Source of the DNA: an uncultured Oscillospiraceae bacterium
GTDB lineage: Bacteria; Bacillota; Clostridia; Oscillospirales; Oscillospiraceae
Length of the DNA stretch: 53,581 bases
Assembly: GCA_944386905.1 (NCBI GenBank)
Contig: CALXCW010000002.1
Location: 1-53,581, forward strand
Reading direction: 5' to 3'
Below the pieces are notes generated by a model, which was not told where the DNA came from, made no database searches, and worked only from the letters and a program-made list of their open reading frames with translations. The translations under genes and the position numbers were made by a program. Of the stretch, positions 2,729 to 46,763 are shown piece after piece. The first letter of the stretch is position 1, and every line of letters starts with the position of its first letter.

Positions 2729-4411
2729 TTACACGGTGGGTTTGTAGCTGTCCTTTAGGGATACGGCACGGTTAAAGACCAGGTGACCGGGTTTGGAATC
2801 CTTGCTGTCGGCGCAGAAGTAGCCGGTGCGCATAAATTGGAACCGATCCTGGGGCTGGGCCGAGGCCAGGAAGGCCTCTACCTTGCAGCCGGTGCGGACT
2901 TCCAAAGAGTCGGGATTGAGACACGCGAGGAAATCTTTGTCAGCGGCGTCGGGAGCCGGGTCGGAGAAGAGGTTGTCATAGAGACGCACTTCGGCGTCCA
3001 GTGCCGTGGCGGCGTCTACCCAGTGGATGGTGGACTTGACTTTGCGGCCGTCGGCAGGGTCACCGCCCCGGGAGTCGGGGTCATACTCACAGAGAACTTC
3101 CAAAATTTTGCCGCTGTCGTCCTTGACGCAGCCGGTACACTTGACCACATAGGCACCCTTGAGGCGGACTTCATTGCCGGGATAGAGACGGAAGAACTTA
3201 CCCACCTTGGCCTCCATAAAGTCTCCGGCCTCGATGTAGAGATCGCGGGAGAAGGTGACGGGGTGGGTGCCGCTTTCGGGATCGACGGGATTGTTCTCCA
3301 CCTGGAAGGTCTCGCTTTGTCCCTCGGGATAGTTGGTTACGGTGAGCCGGATGGGATCCAGAACAGCCATCACCCGCTGAGCGCTCTGGTTGAGATCTTC
3401 CCGCAGGCAGTGCTCTAAGAAGGCGTACTCCACCGTGGAGGCCGCCTTGGCCACGCCGATGCGCTCACAGAAGTTGCGAATGGACGCGGGGGTATAGCCC
3501 CGGCGCCTTAGGCCGCAGAGGGTGGGCATTCTCGGATCATCCCAGCCGGAGACCTTGCCTTCCTCCACCAGCTGGCGCAGCTTGCGCTTGGACATAACGG
3601 TATAGTTGATGCCCAGGCGGGCAAATTCGATTTGGCGAGGCTTGGCAGGCAGAGAGCAGTTTTCGACGACCCAGTTGTAGAGGGGCCGATGGGCCTCAAA
3701 CTCCAGAGAGCACAGCGAGTGGGTGATGTGCTCCATGGCGTCCTCAATGGGATGGGCGAAATCGTACATGGGATAAATGCACCATTTGTCCCCGGTGCGG
3801 TGGTGGGGCTGGTGGTTGATACGGTAGAGGGCGGGGTCACGCATATTGAAGTTGCCGCTGGCCAAATCGATCTTGGCTCGTAGGGTCATGGCGCCATTGG
3901 GGAATTCTCCGGCGCGCATCCGGCGAAAGAGATCCAGCGATTCTTCCTTGGGCCGGTCACGGTAGGGAGACTTGGCTGGCGTGTTGAGGTCGCCGCGGTA
4001 TTCGCGCATCTGTTCGGGGGTCAGTTCACAGACGTAGGCCAGGCCCTTTTCAATGAGTTCCTCGGCACACTGGTACATGACCTCGAAATAGTCCGAGGCG
4101 TAGTAGAATCGGTCGTCCCAGTCAAAGCCCAGCCAGTGGATGTCCTCCTGTATGGCTTCAACATATTCCGTATCCTCTTTGGTGGGGTTGGTGTCGTCCA
4201 TACGGAGGTTGCACATACCACCGAATTTCTCTGCGGTGCCGAAGTCAATGCAAAGCGCTTTGCAGTGGCCGATATGGAGATACCCATTGGGCTCAGGGGG
4301 GAAACGGGTGTGGACGGTCATACCCTCGTACTGTCCGCCGGGGGCGATATCCTTTTCAATAAAAGCGTGAATAAAATTTTGCGACTCCAGGGGCTTGAGT
4401 TCCTCGGGCAT
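2729..4411 (-). CDS. glnS: Glutaminyl-tRNA synthetase
   Basis: Class I aminoacyl-tRNA synthetase charging tRNA-Gln directly. The 560-residue product matches the family length. It has the HIGH-type signature within PPEPNGYLHIGHCKAL (residues about 37-52) and a KMSKS-type VMSKRKL (about 272). The C-terminal beta-barrel anticodon-binding region ends in a conserved basic NRAVSLKDSYK stretch. The ATG at 4411 is chosen because GAGGAGG sits seven bases upstream; the frame is open further upstream but runs over the promoter. It is monocistronic and flanked by its own promoter and terminator, with no T-box leader since the 5' UTR is only about 30 bases. Confidence 0.96.
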   Translation of the reverse strand: MPEELKPLESQNFIHAFIEKDIAPGGQYEGMTVHTRFPPEPNGYLHIGHCKALCIDFGTAEKFGGMCNLRMDDTNPTKEDTEYVEAIQEDIHWLGFDWDDRFYYASDYFEVMYQCAEELIEKGLAYVCELTPEQMREYRGDLNTPAKSPYRDRPKEESLDLFRRMRAGEFPNGAMTLRAKIDLASGNFNMRDPALYRINHQPHHRTGDKWCIYPMYDFAHPIEDAMEHITHSLCSLEFEAHRPLYNWVVENCSLPAKPRQIEFARLGINYTVMSKRKLRQLVEEGKVSGWDDPRMPTLCGLRRRGYTPASIRNFCERIGVAKAASTVEYAFLEHCLREDLNQSAQRVMAVLDPIRLTVTNYPEGQSETFQVENNPVDPESGTHPVTFSRDLYIEAGDFMEAKVGKFFRLYPGNEVRLKGAYVVKCTGCVKDDSGKILEVLCEYDPDSRGGDPADGRKVKSTIHWVDAATALDAEVRLYDNLFSDPAPDAADKDFLACLNPDSLEVRTGCKVEAFLASAQPQDRFQFMRTGYFCADSKDSKPGHLVFNRAVSLKDSYKPTV

Positions 4412-39733: not shown

Positions 39734-41254
39734 TTACGGCAGCAAATCCACGGTAAAATCGGCAAATTGCGTCTCATGGAATACCATGCGCCATTCTACC
39801 GATTTTGCAGGAGAAAAGTGCAGTGCCGAGCAAGCGGCGTGGAGCTTCCCAGGTCTTTTTTGCCCGAGGATCATGGAGGTGGGGCCATCTGCGCCACGGA
39901 TGATCCCGATGACGGCCACCGAGGTGGCCACCGGCTGCCCTGGGGCGGGCGGCTCCCTTTTTGGTTGATCGCTTTCGACGCAATCGGAGACTTCCAGCAC
40001 ACCGTCGGGCAGTTCCGGCGAGAGTGTGTAGGTCATAGCCATATAGTGGCTGGGATAGACGGCGTTTTTCCTGGGCATTTTGCTCCAGTCCATCACCTGC
40101 GGCGCATATTCTTGTAAAGTCAAGCAGTATTCTTTGCCGCCATAGGAAAAAACCACTGTGTCTCCAGGGCTTCTCACCTGGAAGTGCTTTCCGGGACGCG
40201 CCACGGCCTCCTGGGAAAGGGTGAGGGAGAGGGTGCGAATGTCCGGCCTGCGTTTGGTTACATAGGGGAAGCAGAAGCGCCAGATCATCCAGCCATAGTT
40301 CGGATCGAGCTGATAGTGCTTCGCCGCCCACGCCCCTTCACACTCTAGCATGTACCCCTCTGGCACGCAGGGGTTATAGGAGGTACCGCAGCCGCGTTTC
40401 ATGCGAAGATCCTTTCCGTTGAGATGCAAGGTGGGGCGAAAGGAAAATTGCAGAGGGTTTTCGGCTTCCATCTGCATCCGCTCCTCCCGCGTGAAGGAAC
40501 GATGCGCTTCGCTTTCGATGCGCAAATTCCATTTTCCCTGAAAGGCCAGGAGTGCAGATGGATCTGCCCGCATGCAGAAATCCACCACCAGCCCCTTCCC
40601 GCAGATATACAACGCAGGGATATACCAAGTCCGTTCCGCCCAGGGAAACGTCCTGCAGATTGAGATTTCTCTTCCGGCGCGGCGGCCGCGGCGGTGATGG
40701 AAGAAGCCGCCGTCAAAGGTGACCTTCCATTCAGGCTCTATTTGCGGCGCGTCGGGATTCATGTCCGGGTCGTAGTAGTCCTCGGTGTATTTGACTTTGG
40801 AGTAGTCGAAGGCGGCTTGTACATCCTTTAGGTACTCCCATGGCTGTTCCATGGGGGTGAGGCCGGTCTGCGCGCCGATTTGCTTGAGCACGATTTTCGA
40901 CTCCTCCGTTGGCAGATTGTCCGCGAGAAAGGCAGAAAATTGTGCTTTGTCCCACTGCCAGGCCTGTTCCAGCGGCGCGCTGTCGCCGCAGGCCAGAAGG
41001 AGCCGAAGAAAGTCGTCGAAAGTGTAAGAAAGGGGATGCACGAAATTGGGAGAGGTGTTCATGGGGCTGACGGCAAAGACCATCTCTCCAAACCCCCGGA
41101 TGAAGCAGAAATGAATGCCGTCCACCCCTGCCCAGCCGAAGATCTTGGCCCCCTTGGGCGTGCAGAAATAGGGATAGGCGTCGGTGCGCTGTTCCACGCC
41201 AAGGGGCGCTAGATCAATCTGCTTTTTTAAAAAAGCCGGATATGTCATCTTCAC
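39734..41254 (-). CDS. Unrecognised soluble protein with a decarboxylase-beta-like GADGPT motif
   Basis: I do not recognise this 506-residue family. It is rich in Trp, Phe and Pro, with no signal peptide or membrane segment. The N-terminus has LAPLGVEQRTDAYPYFCTPK; the middle has a beta-rich stretch with a His-His-Arg-Arg-Gly-Arg-Arg patch. Near the C-terminus (448-464) lies VIGIIRGADGPTSMILG, closely matching the GIIGGADGPT membrane motif of Na+-pumping decarboxylase beta subunits, although the rest is unrelated. I choose GTG 41254 because GGAGGG lies six bases upstream and a promoter overlies the earlier ATG (41293). Confidence 0.6.
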   Translation of the reverse strand: MKMTYPAFLKKQIDLAPLGVEQRTDAYPYFCTPKGAKIFGWAGVDGIHFCFIRGFGEMVFAVSPMNTSPNFVHPLSYTFDDFLRLLLACGDSAPLEQAWQWDKAQFSAFLADNLPTEESKIVLKQIGAQTGLTPMEQPWEYLKDVQAAFDYSKVKYTEDYYDPDMNPDAPQIEPEWKVTFDGGFFHHRRGRRAGREISICRTFPWAERTWYIPALYICGKGLVVDFCMRADPSALLAFQGKWNLRIESEAHRSFTREERMQMEAENPLQFSFRPTLHLNGKDLRMKRGCGTSYNPCVPEGYMLECEGAWAAKHYQLDPNYGWMIWRFCFPYVTKRRPDIRTLSLTLSQEAVARPGKHFQVRSPGDTVVFSYGGKEYCLTLQEYAPQVMDWSKMPRKNAVYPSHYMAMTYTLSPELPDGVLEVSDCVESDQPKREPPAPGQPVATSVAVIGIIRGADGPTSMILGQKRPGKLHAACSALHFSPAKSVEWRMVFHETQFADFTVDLLP

Positions 41255-41283
41255 GAACTTCCCTCCAAACTCTGTTTTTATCA

Positions 41284-41312
41284 ATTGTAGCATAGTTCCT
41301 TCCTGATGGCAA
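41284..41312 (-). promoter_or_regulatory. SigA-type promoter of the unrecognised GADGPT gene
   Basis: On the minus strand TTGCCA (41312-41307), 17-base spacer, TACAAT (41289-41284). The -35 abuts the T run of the exporter terminator, so transcription stops and restarts within about 60 bases. Confidence 0.6.
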
Positions 41313-41344
41313 AAAAATCCCGCCGGAGAAGAACCAGCAGGATT
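41311..41344 (-). terminator. Terminator after the ABC exporter genes
   Basis: On the minus strand an 11-bp stem with G-T pairs (41344-41334 with 41326-41316) and a 7-base loop, followed by a T run ending at 41311. Confidence 0.75.
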
Positions 41345-41349
41345 TTCTT

Positions 41350-43233
41350 TCATTTGGGCTCTTTTTGAGAAGCGACATAGTACTGCGCCTGGGCGGTGAA
41401 AAGGGTGTGATAGAGCCCCTTTTCCTCGGCCATTAGGGAGGCATGGGTGCCCTCCTGTACCACTTTGCCCTGGTCGAACACGGCGATCTCATCGCAGAAT
41501 TTGCATGAGGAGAGACGGTGGGAGATATATACGGCCGTCTTGTCCTCCAAAATCGCGTTGAAGCTCTCATAGACCTGCGCCTCTGCCAAGGGGTCGAGGG
41601 CTGCCGTAGGCTCATCCAGGATGATGAAAGGGGCATCGCGGTAAAGCGCCCGTGCCAGGGCAATTTTCTGGGCTTCACCGCCGGAGACGTCCACGCCGTC
41701 TTTTTTTAGCTCCTTATAGAGGTATGTTTCTAGTCCCTGGGGCAGCTCCGTGAGCCGCTGCCCAAAGCCTGCTTTCTGAAGGCATGCAGTGACGCGGGCG
41801 GCTTCGTAGGTCTCAGCAGCCGCCACGTTTTCCCCCAGGGGCAGTGCCAGGAGCTTGAAATCCTGGAACACCACAGAGAAAAGTGCGAGATAATCTTCGT
41901 AGCGATACTTGCGGATATCGATCCCGTTGAGGCGAATTTCTCCCACGGTCGGGTCGTAGAGCCGACAGAGGAGCTTGATAAAGGTGGTCTTGCCCGAGCC
42001 GTTTTTGCCCACCACGGCCAGGCGGCTGCCCACTTGAAATCGGAGGTTCACATGGGAAAGGGCCCAGGTGTCGCTTCCAGGATAGCGGAAGGATACATCT
42101 CGGAACTCGATTTCATACTTCCGGTCTGCCCGCTTTTCCGTGGTGAGGCTGCCCTGGTACATCTCATTGGGCAGATCCAGCAGGGAATAGACCTTACCTA
42201 AAAAGGAGGCATTGTTGTTCAACTGCCCCAGATAACTAAAAATGCCGGTAATTCCCAGAAAAAGGTTGGCGATGGCGCCCACATACTGGCTTACCTCACC
42301 CACACCGAAGGCGCCGCCCCAGGCCTTGAGGCAGACGAAGAGATAGATGACGCCGGTGGTCAACATCATGAGCCCACGGGAGAGTGCGAGGAGCCCGCCC
42401 ATGATACCTTTGGCCACTTTGGCCAGAGAGGAGCCGGGGCCGAAGAGATTTTGCATGCAGAGATTGACCGACAGCACATTTTCCTGTTGACCGTAGATGC
42501 GGATATCGGGCGCTCGGCTGCGGTCATCGGTCATGCTGCAGAAAAAGCTGAAAATCCGATTTCCCAGCGTACCGTCCGAGGCATGTTCCGCCCAGTAGGC
42601 CGTGGACTTGGCACCGGAGAGAGAGGAGAACACGGCGATGGTGAAGAGTAGCGCCAGCATCAGCGCCGCTGTCAGGGGATGGTTGAGAAACGTCAGAGGG
42701 CTGCCGGACGGAACGGGATAGAGAAACAAACTGACCGAGAGGCCAATGCCGCCAAAGATACGGAAAATAGCCGTGAGCATGGGCTCCAACAGGAGCAAGG
42801 TAAAGGTGAGGCCGAATCCCATGAATGTGTCATTTTGCCGAATTTGGGTGTAGAGATCATAGACAGCCTGCCGGTCGATGACGGCGAAATCCATGGAGAG
42901 CATTTTGTCCATAAATATACGGCTGACGCAGCGCTCGGCAGCGCTTTGGTGGTAGTTCTTCCACCGGGTAAGCAGCCCGCCCAGCAAGGAAAGCATGCCT
43001 GCGCTTCCCAGCGCCAGCACAGCCCAAAAGAGAATCTGCTGCCCGTTGCGATTTCCGGCCAGCTCGCCCAGCAGCCGCGCGGCAAAGTAGATGGCAGCGT
43101 AGCGCTCGATTTCCTTGACGAGAGACATGAGCGCGGTGGAAACAATCAGTCCGGGGCGGAGTTTCCGCCAGATTCTCATGGCGCGCCAGGTGTTATGCCA
43201 TGCCTGGCGTTTGGTGAGCTGATTCTGCTGCAT
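41350..43233 (-). CDS. ABC exporter, fused permease/ATPase, subunit 2
   Basis: A 627-residue half-transporter of the type I (ABCB/MsbA-like) exporter fold. About six membrane helices occupy the first 330 residues. An ATPase domain follows with Walker A GKNGSGKTT (about 407-415), signature VSGGEAQKIALARAL (about 513), Walker B FIILDEPTAALDP (about 535) and the H-loop SHRLSS. The start ATG 43233 has AAAGGGG nine bases upstream and overlaps the 3' end of subunit 1 by 41 bases. Both ATP sites look canonical. It probably forms a heterodimer with subunit 1; the cargo is unknown. Confidence 0.88.
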   Translation of the reverse strand: MQQNQLTKRQAWHNTWRAMRIWRKLRPGLIVSTALMSLVKEIERYAAIYFAARLLGELAGNRNGQQILFWAVLALGSAGMLSLLGGLLTRWKNYHQSAAERCVSRIFMDKMLSMDFAVIDRQAVYDLYTQIRQNDTFMGFGLTFTLLLLEPMLTAIFRIFGGIGLSVSLFLYPVPSGSPLTFLNHPLTAALMLALLFTIAVFSSLSGAKSTAYWAEHASDGTLGNRIFSFFCSMTDDRSRAPDIRIYGQQENVLSVNLCMQNLFGPGSSLAKVAKGIMGGLLALSRGLMMLTTGVIYLFVCLKAWGGAFGVGEVSQYVGAIANLFLGITGIFSYLGQLNNNASFLGKVYSLLDLPNEMYQGSLTTEKRADRKYEIEFRDVSFRYPGSDTWALSHVNLRFQVGSRLAVVGKNGSGKTTFIKLLCRLYDPTVGEIRLNGIDIRKYRYEDYLALFSVVFQDFKLLALPLGENVAAAETYEAARVTACLQKAGFGQRLTELPQGLETYLYKELKKDGVDVSGGEAQKIALARALYRDAPFIILDEPTAALDPLAEAQVYESFNAILEDKTAVYISHRLSSCKFCDEIAVFDQGKVVQEGTHASLMAEEKGLYHTLFTAQAQYYVASQKEPK

Positions 43234-45040
43234 GCATTGCATCCCCTTTCTCGTAGTATCGCCGCTGCACGGAAAAGAGCTTGGCGTAAAGGCCGCCCTG
43301 TTGGAGTAGAGCCTCATGGCTTCCCACCTCGGCGATGCGCCCATTTTCCAGCAGAACAATGCGGTCGCAGAACCGGGTGGAGGCCAGCCGGTGGGAGATA
43401 AACAGGGAAGTCTTTCCCCGAGTCATATCGCTGTACTGCAAATATATTTCCCGCTCGGTGATGGGGTCGAGCGCGGCGGTAGGTTCATCCAGCACCAGCA
43501 CGGCGCCGTCGCGGTAGAGGGCCCTTGACAGCATCAATCGCTGGGTTTGACCGCCGGAGAGCTCGGTGCCGTCGTCGTAGATGGAGCGACCCAGGTGGGT
43601 CTGCAGTCCATGGGGCAGTGCGCGCACCACCTCAGAGAGCCCTGCGTCTTGGAGGCACTGCCAGACTTTGGCCTCATCAATGCCAGTTACACGCTGGGCG
43701 ACGTTTTCTGCGACCGTCGCTTCCAACAGAGAAAACTCCTGGAACACTGCTGAAAAGAGACGGTAGTATGCCCGGCGGTTGAAGTTTCGGATGTCTATGC
43801 CGTTGAGACGGATTGTCCCCTCGGTAGGATCGAGAAAACCGCACAATAGTTTTACCAGCGTGGTCTTGCCCGCGCCGTTTAATCCCACCACGGCCAGCTT
43901 TTCTCCCCGGTGGAGGATGAGACTGAGATCGTGGATGGTGGCCTCTGTCGCACCGGGATAGCGGTAGGAGACGTGCTCCAGCTGGAGTGTATAGGTTCCG
44001 TTTGTGGCGTCGGGGATGGGTTCGCCGCCGATGAGGCAAAATCGCTCGGGCCATTCGAGAAACTCCCGTACCACGGAGATCTCCAGGCTTTCCTTGCTCA
44101 ACTGGGTAAATTGTTCAAGAATGCCCGTGATCCACTGAGTAAAGCCACTGGCTGCGGTGAAATAGAGCAGGAATGTGGATGCACTGAGGTTTTCCGTCAG
44201 CGTGAGGTGAAGAAGGTAGCCGTAGGCGATGCCGTTTCGCAGCAGCGAGAGTAGAAAGTCCGATAGATTCATCAGGAAATGGTGTCGCTCTCGCCGGGAG
44301 AGAAAGCCTTCATAGAGCCGAAAGCTCTTTTGCCAGACCTCCTGGAGCCACGGTGTTAGGCCGAAGATGCGGATGTCTTTGGCAAAGGTGCGGGAAGTGA
44401 CGGTTTTATTCACATAGCGCATTTGCGCGGTGTAGGCAGCCTCTTCCTCTCGGTGGTGGTAGCCCCACTGATTGATGTGGCGGCTCACGTAATACCCTGC
44501 CACGGTGGTGGCGATGATCACAAAAAGGAGAAGGGGAGAGAGGGGGGAAAGCAGCGCCAGATACACGGCAAATCCCAGCAGATTGGCCAGAATGTTTGTC
44601 CAGGTGAACCAGATGTTTTCTGCGGGAGACTGGTTGTCTTCGCAGGCGCTGGAGGCGCGCTCCTTGCGCTGTAAAAAGGTGGTGTCCAGAAGATTTTCGT
44701 AGGACGTCTGCGCCATTTTCTCGGCAATGGCCTCGATGAGCTTGATCCGCACTGTGACCCGTCCAAAGAGCTTGTTGAGATCCAAGTATTCTTTGGCAGC
44801 GGCAAAGAGAATCAGCGCCCCGGTAAAGATGGCGATGGCGCCGAGAAGCTGGGGAAGGGATGCCCCGCGCTCCAACTGTTGCAAAATCCCCGGCGCAATC
44901 AGAAGCTGTACGACCGTCTCACCCGCTGTGGCCACAGCCAGAACGACGCTTATGGCCAGCACGCTTTTACAATGCCGCCAGGCGAGCGTGACCATGTAGC
45001 CTGAGTTCTGCCAGAGATTGTATTTGGGTTTTTCGTGCAT
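43193..45040 (-). CDS. ABC exporter, fused permease/ATPase, subunit 1
   Basis: A 615-residue half-transporter with N-terminal membrane helices (about 15-330). Its ATPase carries Walker A GLNGAGKTT (about 384-392), signature LSGGQTQRLMLSRAL (about 493), Walker B VLVLDEPTAALDP (about 514) and SHRLAS (about 547). GGAGGTGAG precedes the ATG. It lies directly downstream of the LytTR response regulator/kinase pair, separated by 94 bases holding direct repeats and a -10 element. The pair resembles exporters of peptides or drugs controlled by LytTR systems, but no precursor peptide or peptidase domain is present. Confidence 0.88.
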   Translation of the reverse strand: MHEKPKYNLWQNSGYMVTLAWRHCKSVLAISVVLAVATAGETVVQLLIAPGILQQLERGASLPQLLGAIAIFTGALILFAAAKEYLDLNKLFGRVTVRIKLIEAIAEKMAQTSYENLLDTTFLQRKERASSACEDNQSPAENIWFTWTNILANLLGFAVYLALLSPLSPLLLFVIIATTVAGYYVSRHINQWGYHHREEEAAYTAQMRYVNKTVTSRTFAKDIRIFGLTPWLQEVWQKSFRLYEGFLSRRERHHFLMNLSDFLLSLLRNGIAYGYLLHLTLTENLSASTFLLYFTAASGFTQWITGILEQFTQLSKESLEISVVREFLEWPERFCLIGGEPIPDATNGTYTLQLEHVSYRYPGATEATIHDLSLILHRGEKLAVVGLNGAGKTTLVKLLCGFLDPTEGTIRLNGIDIRNFNRRAYYRLFSAVFQEFSLLEATVAENVAQRVTGIDEAKVWQCLQDAGLSEVVRALPHGLQTHLGRSIYDDGTELSGGQTQRLMLSRALYRDGAVLVLDEPTAALDPITEREIYLQYSDMTRGKTSLFISHRLASTRFCDRIVLLENGRIAEVGSHEALLQQGGLYAKLFSVQRRYYEKGDAMHAAESAHQTPGMA

Positions 45041-45059
45041 CGTCTCACCTCCAAGTCCA

Positions 45060-45065
45060 GCATAG
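45060..45065 (-). promoter_or_regulatory. -10 element of a candidate exporter promoter
   Basis: On the minus strand TATGCT (45065-45060), 19 bases before the subunit 1 ATG. At 17 bases upstream the sequence is GCGCCA, a poor -35, as expected for an activator-dependent promoter. Confidence 0.45.
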
Positions 45066-45068
45066 CAG

Positions 45069-45116
45069 AAAAAATCCCCAGTGGCGCGTTTCGGGGACGA
45101 ATTGCGCCATCCGGGG
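45069..45116 (-). terminator. Hairpin with T run between the histidine kinase and the exporter
   Basis: On the minus strand CCCCGGATGGCGC (45116-45104) pairs imperfectly with GCGCCACTGGGG (45087-45076), followed by a T6 run (45074-45069). It probably ends the regulator transcript. It overlaps the direct repeats. Confidence 0.55.
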
Positions 45117-45122
45117 GACGAA
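45093..45122 (-). promoter_or_regulatory. Direct repeats with LytTR-site geometry upstream of the ABC exporter
   Basis: TTCGTCCCC occurs twice on the minus strand (45122-45114 and 45101-45093) with a 12-base spacer, 21 bases start to start. AgrA-like LytTR regulators bind 9-bp direct repeats with a 12-base spacer. The repeats sit at about -40 to -69 from the start predicted by the downstream TATGCT, the right place for activation. Confidence 0.6.
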
Positions 45123-45134
45123 CTGTTTAGGGAC

Positions 45135-45797
45135 TTACACCTGGGGAATCAAAATCTCCGTGGTAAATGCGCCGTCCTCGGAATTGCGGCTCACGTACCC
45201 ATCCAGCCGGTCGAGGATAGCGTCAATGCGGGTGAGGCCGAAGCCGTGGCCCTCGCCCTTGGTGGAGCGAAAACTCCGCCCGAACTTTTCCTGCTTTTTC
45301 GCTGCGGTAAAGTTGGTAAAAGAGATGTAGAGTTGGGTGCCCTTCATATCCATATACACACGAATAAGCCGCTGCCCTTTCGGAAGCTGCATATTTGCCT
45401 CGATGGCGTTGTCGAAGAGGTTGCCGAGAATGCAGCATAGATCCAACTCCGACATGGTGAGCTTTACTGGGATGTGAGCGTCGGCCAGTACCGGAATCTC
45501 CCGGGACTTACAGAGTGAGAGCTTGGAATTCAAGATGGCGTCGGCCATGGGGTTTCCTGTTTTGACTGCGGTGTCCACCGTGCTGAGGTCGGTATCCAGC
45601 AGGTCGAGATAGTCCTGGATGGCCTGTAGATTTCCCTCCGCAGCATAGACTTTCATGGCTTGGATGTGGCTTTTATAGTCGTGCCGCCAGCCGCGGATCT
45701 GCTTGTACATGGTCTCAACCTCGGCAAAATGGGTTTCGATGAGCTCCCGCTGATAGGCTGCGATTCGCTTGTCGATATACTTCGAAAGAAAACCCAT
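45135..45797 (-). CDS. Soluble GHKL-type sensor histidine kinase (AgrC/LytS-like catalytic part)
   Basis: A 220-residue kinase. The phospho-acceptor region is RGWRHDYKSHIQAM (about 34-47, His followed by Asp-Tyr), typical of LytTR-partner kinases. The ATP-binding N box is LGNLFDNAIEANM (about 125-137), and the G box is KGEGHGFGLTRID (about 180-192). The N-terminal multi-helix membrane sensor usual in AgrC-like kinases is absent, leaving a short coiled segment. ATG 45797 has AGAGGA nine bases upstream. It lies four bases after the response regulator. How it senses a signal is unclear. Confidence 0.85.
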   Translation of the reverse strand: MGFLSKYIDKRIAAYQRELIETHFAEVETMYKQIRGWRHDYKSHIQAMKVYAAEGNLQAIQDYLDLLDTDLSTVDTAVKTGNPMADAILNSKLSLCKSREIPVLADAHIPVKLTMSELDLCCILGNLFDNAIEANMQLPKGQRLIRVYMDMKGTQLYISFTNFTAAKKQEKFGRSFRSTKGEGHGFGLTRIDAILDRLDGYVSRNSEDGAFTTEILIPQV

Positions 45798-45801
45798 GGC
45801 G

Positions 45802-46500
45802 TTATGTCCTCTCAATAATGGCGCGATTGAGTTGATCATAGGCACCTCGCGGCAAGGGCAAGGCGGTGCCGTCGGAAAGTAAGATTTCCTGCTTGGTTAC
45901 CCGCCGGATGCAAAAGAGGTTGACAATCAGTGAGCGCCCCACAGGAAAGAAACGCTCGTCCAGCTGGGGGAGAAACTCCTTGAGAGGACGCTTGACACGA
46001 TAGTCCTCACCGGCGTGAACGGTGACGTAGTTTTGCACTACATCCAAATAGCGGATTTCTCCCAGCCGCAGCCGCAGGAGCTGACTGCTCCACTCCAGCG
46101 GCAGATACTTGGCGCTTTGCAAAAGGCGAGCGCGTGCACGGTCGAGAACCGAAAAGAATTTCTCCTGCTGGACGGGCTTTACCAGATAATGAAGCGCTCC
46201 CACTTCATAGCCCTCGGCGATGTAGTCGCCATAGCCGGTGATAAAAACAATCTCCAAGAGATCGTTTTTATGCCGGATTTTCTTGGCCATGGTCACACCG
46301 TCCATACGGGATAGTTCGATATCCAGAAGCAGCAGATCGTAGCAGGGGAAATTCTCATAATGAAAGAGAAACTGCTCGGCTGAGGCGAAGAGGCGGATTG
46401 TGACCGCCTCCCCCCGCATCTGGGCCCATGCTTGCAAGAGCGTTTGAACGGCATGGCGATCAGTCTCCCGGTCGTCAACAATGGCTGCGGAAATTGCCAT
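45802..46500 (-). CDS. LytTR-family response regulator
   Basis: A 232-residue regulator with an N-terminal receiver domain: acidic pair VDDRE (about 8-12), phospho-acceptor Asp in LLLLDIELSRMDG (about 60), Thr in FITGYGD (about 88) and Lys in YLVKPV (about 110). The LytTR DNA-binding domain (about 135-230) has IRYLDVVQNYVTVHAGE and FFPVGRSLIVNL. AAGGAAG precedes the ATG. A TATAAT on the minus strand at 46558-46553 overlaps the upstream gene's stop and may be its -10, though no good -35 is seen. Confidence 0.92.
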   Translation of the reverse strand: MAISAAIVDDRETDRHAVQTLLQAWAQMRGEAVTIRLFASAEQFLFHYENFPCYDLLLLDIELSRMDGVTMAKKIRHKNDLLEIVFITGYGDYIAEGYEVGALHYLVKPVQQEKFFSVLDRARARLLQSAKYLPLEWSSQLLRLRLGEIRYLDVVQNYVTVHAGEDYRVKRPLKEFLPQLDERFFPVGRSLIVNLFCIRRVTKQEILLSDGTALPLPRGAYDQLNRAIIERT

Positions 46501-46516
46501 GGGATCACTTCCTTGG

Positions 46517-46544
46517 AAAAAAAGCAGCGGGCTGGCCGCTGCTT
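46517..46544 (-). terminator. Terminator after the zinc-ribbon gene
   Basis: A perfect 9-bp stem AAGCAGCGG/CCGCTGCTT with a 5-base loop; on the minus strand the stem runs into a T7 run (46523-46517). It separates the ylbJ-side genes from the LytTR pair. Confidence 0.85.
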
Positions 46545-46553
46545 GGAGGTAAA

Positions 46554-46763
46554 TTATAATGAATAGTCTTTCTCTTCGTATTTGGAAAAGTCCTGGGCCT
46601 TTGGACGAGCCGGGACGCGCTTCAGGGGATCATAGCGAAACCGGCGGCACTGGTGGGAGGAAGGCACCACGCCGCACTTTTGGCAGATCATCTGCTCGTC
46701 GCTGATTTTCCCTGCAAAGGCGCAGTAGGCGCAGCGGCGGTCGATCTTTTTGCGAAACAGCAT
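46554..46763 (-). CDS. Small putative zinc-ribbon protein
   Basis: A 69-residue basic protein with five Cys: CAYC (11-14), CQKC (27-30) and Cys39, followed by RRFRYDPLKRVPARP. Two CxxC pairs 12 residues apart suggest a zinc knuckle; the conserved-looking tail suggests a defined family, but I cannot name a function. ATG 46763 has GGAGG at seven bases, so it is a real gene. It lies 23 bases downstream of ylbJ on the same strand, followed by a terminator, so it is probably co-transcribed with ylbJ and perhaps expressed during sporulation. Confidence 0.75.
   Translation of the reverse strand: MLFRKKIDRRCAYCAFAGKISDEQMICQKCGVVPSSHQCRRFRYDPLKRVPARPKAQDFSKYEEKDYSL

Follow-up and report, generated by a model that had tools for sequence, protein, structure and literature searches.

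A tandem repeat matching LytTR operators as the probable activator site of an ABC exporter in an uncultured Oscillospiraceae bacterium

The 94-base gap that separates a response regulator/kinase gene pair from two ABC exporter genes in an uncultured Oscillospiraceae bacterium contains two direct repeats, which are very probably the switch by which the regulator turns the exporter on. From the sequence comparisons presented below, we put at roughly 0.88 the probability that the adjacent LytTR response regulator uses this pair as its activator site at the promoter of the exporter. Dozens of gut bacteria with a matching regulator gene have the pair too, equally far from the promoter. Usually, a single target is detected for it. 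LytTR tandem-repeat activator sites are already known as a general kind; this one is a variant in its half-site subfamily, in the overlap of the operator with a putative terminator and in that no such site stands in front of the regulator gene.

All genes of the cassette lie on the minus strand of the window, i.e. the whole stretch of 53,581 nucleotides that was analysed. The presumed binder is encoded at 45802-46500 and consists of a receiver and a LytTR domain (Pfam Response_reg, 63 bits; LytTR, 44.9 bits with a cut-off of 22.6 bits); its profile matches ComE over the full length. It is followed by a GHKL histidine kinase (45135-45845; Pfam HATPase_c_5), and hydropathy analysis found no transmembrane-like stretch in this kinase nor in 41 of 44 orthologous frames. 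Across relatives, median identity is 73% for the kinase, 55% for the regulator and 51% for the exporter, which is partial in many loci. This order is the reverse of what is expected for a sensor, and the kinase may read a conserved internal cue or partner. The ORF list and Pfam place the first half-exporter, the presumed target gene, at 43193-45040, and the second, next in the operon, at 41350-43233 (start taken at the ATG of MQQNQ). Both are MsbA-like half-transporters with intact ATPase motifs. The exporter statistics given here leave out the second half-exporter. Downstream of them, a 539-aa ORF (39734-41353) has no match to a Pfam or NCBIfam family. No peptide precursor gene was recognised in the ORF list of the window, which covers small ORFs non-exhaustively. 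A terminator-like hairpin with a T-tract (46522-46544) lies ahead of the regulator gene, so that regulator and kinase are probably transcribed as a separate unit.

The 9-mer TTCGTCCCC occurs on the minus strand at 45122-45114 and again at 45101-45093, with a spacer of 12 bases and thus a period of 21 bp, or two turns of the helix. These positions, the spacer and the gap from the kinase stop (45135) to the exporter start (45040) agree with an earlier note on this DNA. That note proposed the 9-mer itself as the repeat unit of a candidate LytTR operator; the repeats are real, but the LytTR half-site is in another register and begins four bases ahead of the 9-mer. In the corrected register, the left half-site ACAGTTCGT (45118-45126) is followed by a conserved CCCC at 45117-45114, and the right half-site GCAATTCGT (45097-45105), 21 bp away, by a conserved CCCC at 45096-45093. 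Compared with what we take to be the general LytTR consensus, the left half-site fits at 9/9 positions and the right one at 7/9. The exact TTCGTCCCC pair is found a single time in the window, never in dinucleotide-preserving shuffles, and once, at this site, in the 1.99-Mb draft genome (81% complete). When that genome was scanned with a 20-position pattern allowing up to three mismatches, this site scored zero, none scored one or two, and five background sites scored three, so that the genome-wide search proposed in the earlier note came out in favour of the pair. The mismatch profile was likewise empty between real site and background in three sister genomes with the regulator, and no site with fewer than two mismatches was present in two sister genomes without a regulator match.

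Relatives of the regulator and exporter were gathered from 300 family genomes, 391 class genomes and GTDB contigs. Among 55 non-redundant exporter upstream regions, 46 had a 21-bp pair scoring at least 17/20, while background pieces mostly scored 12-14 and the few high null scores included real sites. With the period left free between 12 and 40, 45 of the 47 best pairs that reached 17/20 fell at 21 bp. Conservation in orthologous loci, another check named in the earlier note, was thus borne out. The pair also persists at exporters separated from the regulator. Six solo exporters (L048, L049, L050, L051, L062/L090 and L099) all retain it in front; regulator and kinase lie downstream on the opposite strand in L049 and L051 and are not upstream of the exporter in L050, L062/L090 and L099, and L048 is a short contig. 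Genome G097 has two exact pairs, both in front of such exporters, and one of these exporters lies apart from the regulator. The upstream region of L056, an exporter 55% identical for which no regulator or kinase was found in the flanks, has no pair. In L051, three half-sites stand in a row at 21-bp steps ahead of the exporter (3052-3110).

The occurrence of the pair follows that of the regulator. Genomes with a match above 200 bits were counted as regulator-positive, which applied to 23 of the 300 family genomes. The exact pair was present in 17 of these 23 and in none of the other 277 (Fisher p ~4e-23, kinship ignored); in the class set it was present in 7/10 regulator-positive genomes and 2/381 others (p 2e-11). 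As the genomes are related, these p-values overstate independence. When one mismatch was allowed at the exporter, 22 of the 23 family genomes had the pair, and in the sole exception (G055) regulator and kinase are followed by non-exporter genes. A motif search with one mismatch allowed, however, gave additional chance hits that were not at exporters and came mostly from genomes lacking the regulator; the conclusions therefore rest on exact matches. Outside the regulator-positive genomes of the class set, the pair of G577 stands before the remnant of a decayed exporter, with a fragment of a regulator close by. The exact pair of G652, also in the class set, has no homologous exporter start and looks like a chance occurrence. 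The draft genome encodes two further LytTR domains, one of which might use the site in place of the adjacent regulator. We consider this extremely improbable, because the exact pair is missing from all family genomes without the orthologue, 79 of which have other regulator matches at E <= 1e-20, and because the neighbouring regulator subfamily has a repeat type of its own. Upstream of 44 regulator genes, the best pair scores were 11-16/20, which is the background range, and no autoregulation was detected.

The pair stands at a fixed distance from a putative promoter. The extended -10 element TGCTATGCT lies at 45059-45067 (minus strand), with its TATGCT hexamer at 45064-45059, one base from the 45065-45060 given in the earlier note. 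The absence of any sigma-70 -35/-10 match within 44900-46700 supports that note's remark that no decent -35 exists. Across the 46 loci, TGnTAnnnT is found 36-38 bp from the right TTC in 40 (37 bp in 34 loci, 36 or 38 bp in six more) and plain TAnnnT at 36-38 bp in 44. The offset to the extended -10 stays fixed, while the distance to the start codon ranges between 61 and 185; in half-site register, the right half-site lies 41 bp upstream of the hexamer. Exporter transcription is predicted to start near 45052, which would put the centre of the repeat pair at about -56. The Shine-Dalgarno sequence GGAGGTGAG (45052-45044) coincides with this predicted start, giving a leader of only ~12 nt, and comparably short leaders are predicted for several relatives.

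Taken together, the pair tracks the regulator, keeps a fixed offset to the -10 and stays with distant exporters, which supports the proposal that it is an activator site with the exporter as target. According to this proposal, the soluble GHKL kinase would phosphorylate the regulator, and two regulator molecules would occupy ACAGTTCGT and GCAATTCGT from the same side of the helix, immediately ahead of the would-be -35. They would then recruit RNA polymerase to TGCTATGCT, presumably weak alone, so that both exporter genes would be transcribed from about 45052. Some LytTR regulators repress, PlnD being an example (PMC2714321), and the regulator might likewise repress the exporter through the pair. 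This is very unlikely here, as the pair lies upstream of a promoter without a -35 and with the same offset as at promoters known to be activated (41 bp in HdrR; PMC6193735).

The described LytTR arrangement consists of tandem 9-bp repeats with a 12-bp spacer upstream of a promoter (PMC2714321, PMC4064291, PMC6193735). The cassette conforms to it in having half-sites 21 bp apart, a fixed promoter offset and a regulator with a LytTR domain. The HdrR/BrsR LytTR Regulatory Systems of Streptococcus mutans (PMC6193735) are like it in that a weak promoter with an extended -10 is immediately preceded by two 9-bp direct repeats with a 12-bp spacer. Half-site-to--10 offsets computed from Table 2 of that paper are 41 bp for HdrR, the same as here, 40 for BrsR and 42 for SMU_433. 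However, HdrR and BrsR pair with a membrane inhibitor and drive their own operons, whereas here a response regulator is followed by a soluble GHKL kinase instead of a membrane inhibitor protein, the exporter is the presumed target, and the regulator gene has no pair in front of it. PlnC/PlnD of Lactobacillus plantarum and AgrA of Staphylococcus are, as here, regulators with a receiver and a LytTR domain (PMC2714321, PMC4227749). The pln repeats are in tandem with the same 12-bp spacer and a different half-site, TACGTTAAT (PMC2714321); the AgrA direct repeats are centred near -60, close to the position predicted here. Both systems differ from the cassette in their membrane kinases, peptide signals and self-activated operons: neither a membrane-embedded kinase nor an operator before the regulator's own operon was found in it.

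The operator overlaps a hairpin (45116-45076) followed by a T-tract (45074-45069), together spanning 45069-45116 on the minus strand, which was missed in the first reading. The fold has a predicted energy of -27.6 kcal/mol (z -3.7) and probably serves as intrinsic terminator for the regulator-kinase transcript; a loop limit of 8 kept it out of the terminator-scan list. One arm of the 62-nt fold of the window is the C-run behind the left half-site, and the right repeat lies inside the fold; a 39-nt fold restricted to the surroundings of the right repeat is unremarkable (z -0.8). A hairpin in which the region of the right repeat pairs with a downstream G-rich arm is present in 36 of the 46 loci, usually with a T-tract after it and directly before the -10. 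In 35 distinct sequences, 74% of the cells are paired against 40-55% for slid partners, and 10 double-changed cells were counted against 3.6 in shuffles. The inverted arm was considered as a third protein site and is disfavoured, as its differences from the half-site are often such that G-U pairing in the RNA is retained; one pair is U-G in 22/35 and U-A in 10/35 sequences.

Since the hairpin makes use of the CCCC of each repeat as well, the conservation of this part may stem partly from RNA. It is nevertheless highly improbable that they are conserved only as arms of the regulator-kinase terminator, with no protein reading them as DNA, even though the hairpin is widely kept and its pairing exceeds the slid controls. 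The repeats persist without the hairpin: ten loci have both repeats and no hairpin, among them all six solo exporters, whereas the hairpin is present in 36/40 collinear exporter loci. As most of the solo loci are closely related to one another, this contrast represents only a few independent events. Furthermore, for a terminator a single arm would suffice; neither a second copy at exactly 21 bp nor a fixed offset to the -10 is required. Under the preferred reading as an activator site, the hairpin and T-tract would end transcription of the regulator-kinase operon, so that exporter expression would depend on the activated promoter and not on read-through. A coupling of the two functions, in which the bound regulator would alter termination or read-through of its own operon besides starting exporter transcription, is rather unlikely; if true, the regulator-kinase transcript would be linked conditionally to the exporter genes.

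The half-site sequence was also compared with AlgR of Pseudomonas aeruginosa, which has the published core CCGTTCGTC and the rhlI site CCGTTCATC (PMC4064291). Of the 92 half-sites in the 46 loci, 47 match this core at 7/9 positions, 24 at 6/9, 11 at 8/9, seven at 5/9 and three at 9/9. As identity is mostly 6-8/9, the half-site resembles that of AlgR in sequence and those of Agr/Pln in arrangement. The G/A variation recurs in the rhlI site, but AlgR sites are not necessarily tandem with a 12-bp spacer, and phylum, kinase and targets differ. The distinct specificity suggested in the earlier note thus holds with respect to Agr; yet the sequence is close to the AlgR core, and a few orthologous half-sites are identical to it.

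Regulators 34-44% identical to that of the window also occur with GHKL kinases, and many show TTCGTGC-type repeats with a 21-bp period after the kinase; others in this identity range have no repeats in the stretch examined. For the TTCGTGC-type repeats, the -10 is mostly at 37 bp, the TG-extended form having a chance rate of 2.7% per region. Some genomes carry both subfamilies, e.g. G020, G526 and G622, each beside its own repeat type. Nine positions separate the subfamilies, and three of them coincide with or adjoin positions where the LytTR domain contacts DNA. TTCRTCMCC goes with Asn157 and Gly188, and TTCGTGC with His at both aligned positions. Asn157 aligns with the His of SHRLIAH in AgrA (His169, counted from L171 and H174 of PMC4227749) and Gly188 with AgrA His200 in FFRCHNS; the third position, Pro217, adjoins Arg218. 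This residue-base pairing is a correlation along a phylogenetic split and not proof of a code. Two subfamilies with their own repeat types would nonetheless make a LytTR base-recognition code testable by single residue or base swaps.

In the open-licence literature searched, including LytTR papers, no description of the cassette, motif or regulator family was found, and the repeat sequence matched only unrelated papers. For a regulator family of Oscillospiraceae, Lachnospiraceae and beyond, the results provide a likely target and a likely DNA specificity, and they mark exporters whose cargo can be sought. The presence of the same regulator-kinase-exporter cassette (46%, 62% and 54% identical, respectively) in a contig of Bifidobacterium pullorum (L052:3413-6782), where its operator is degenerate, suggests transfer between phyla. 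In a sister genome (L096:1398-8850), a second exporter pair directly follows the first, and one operator may therefore drive four exporter genes.
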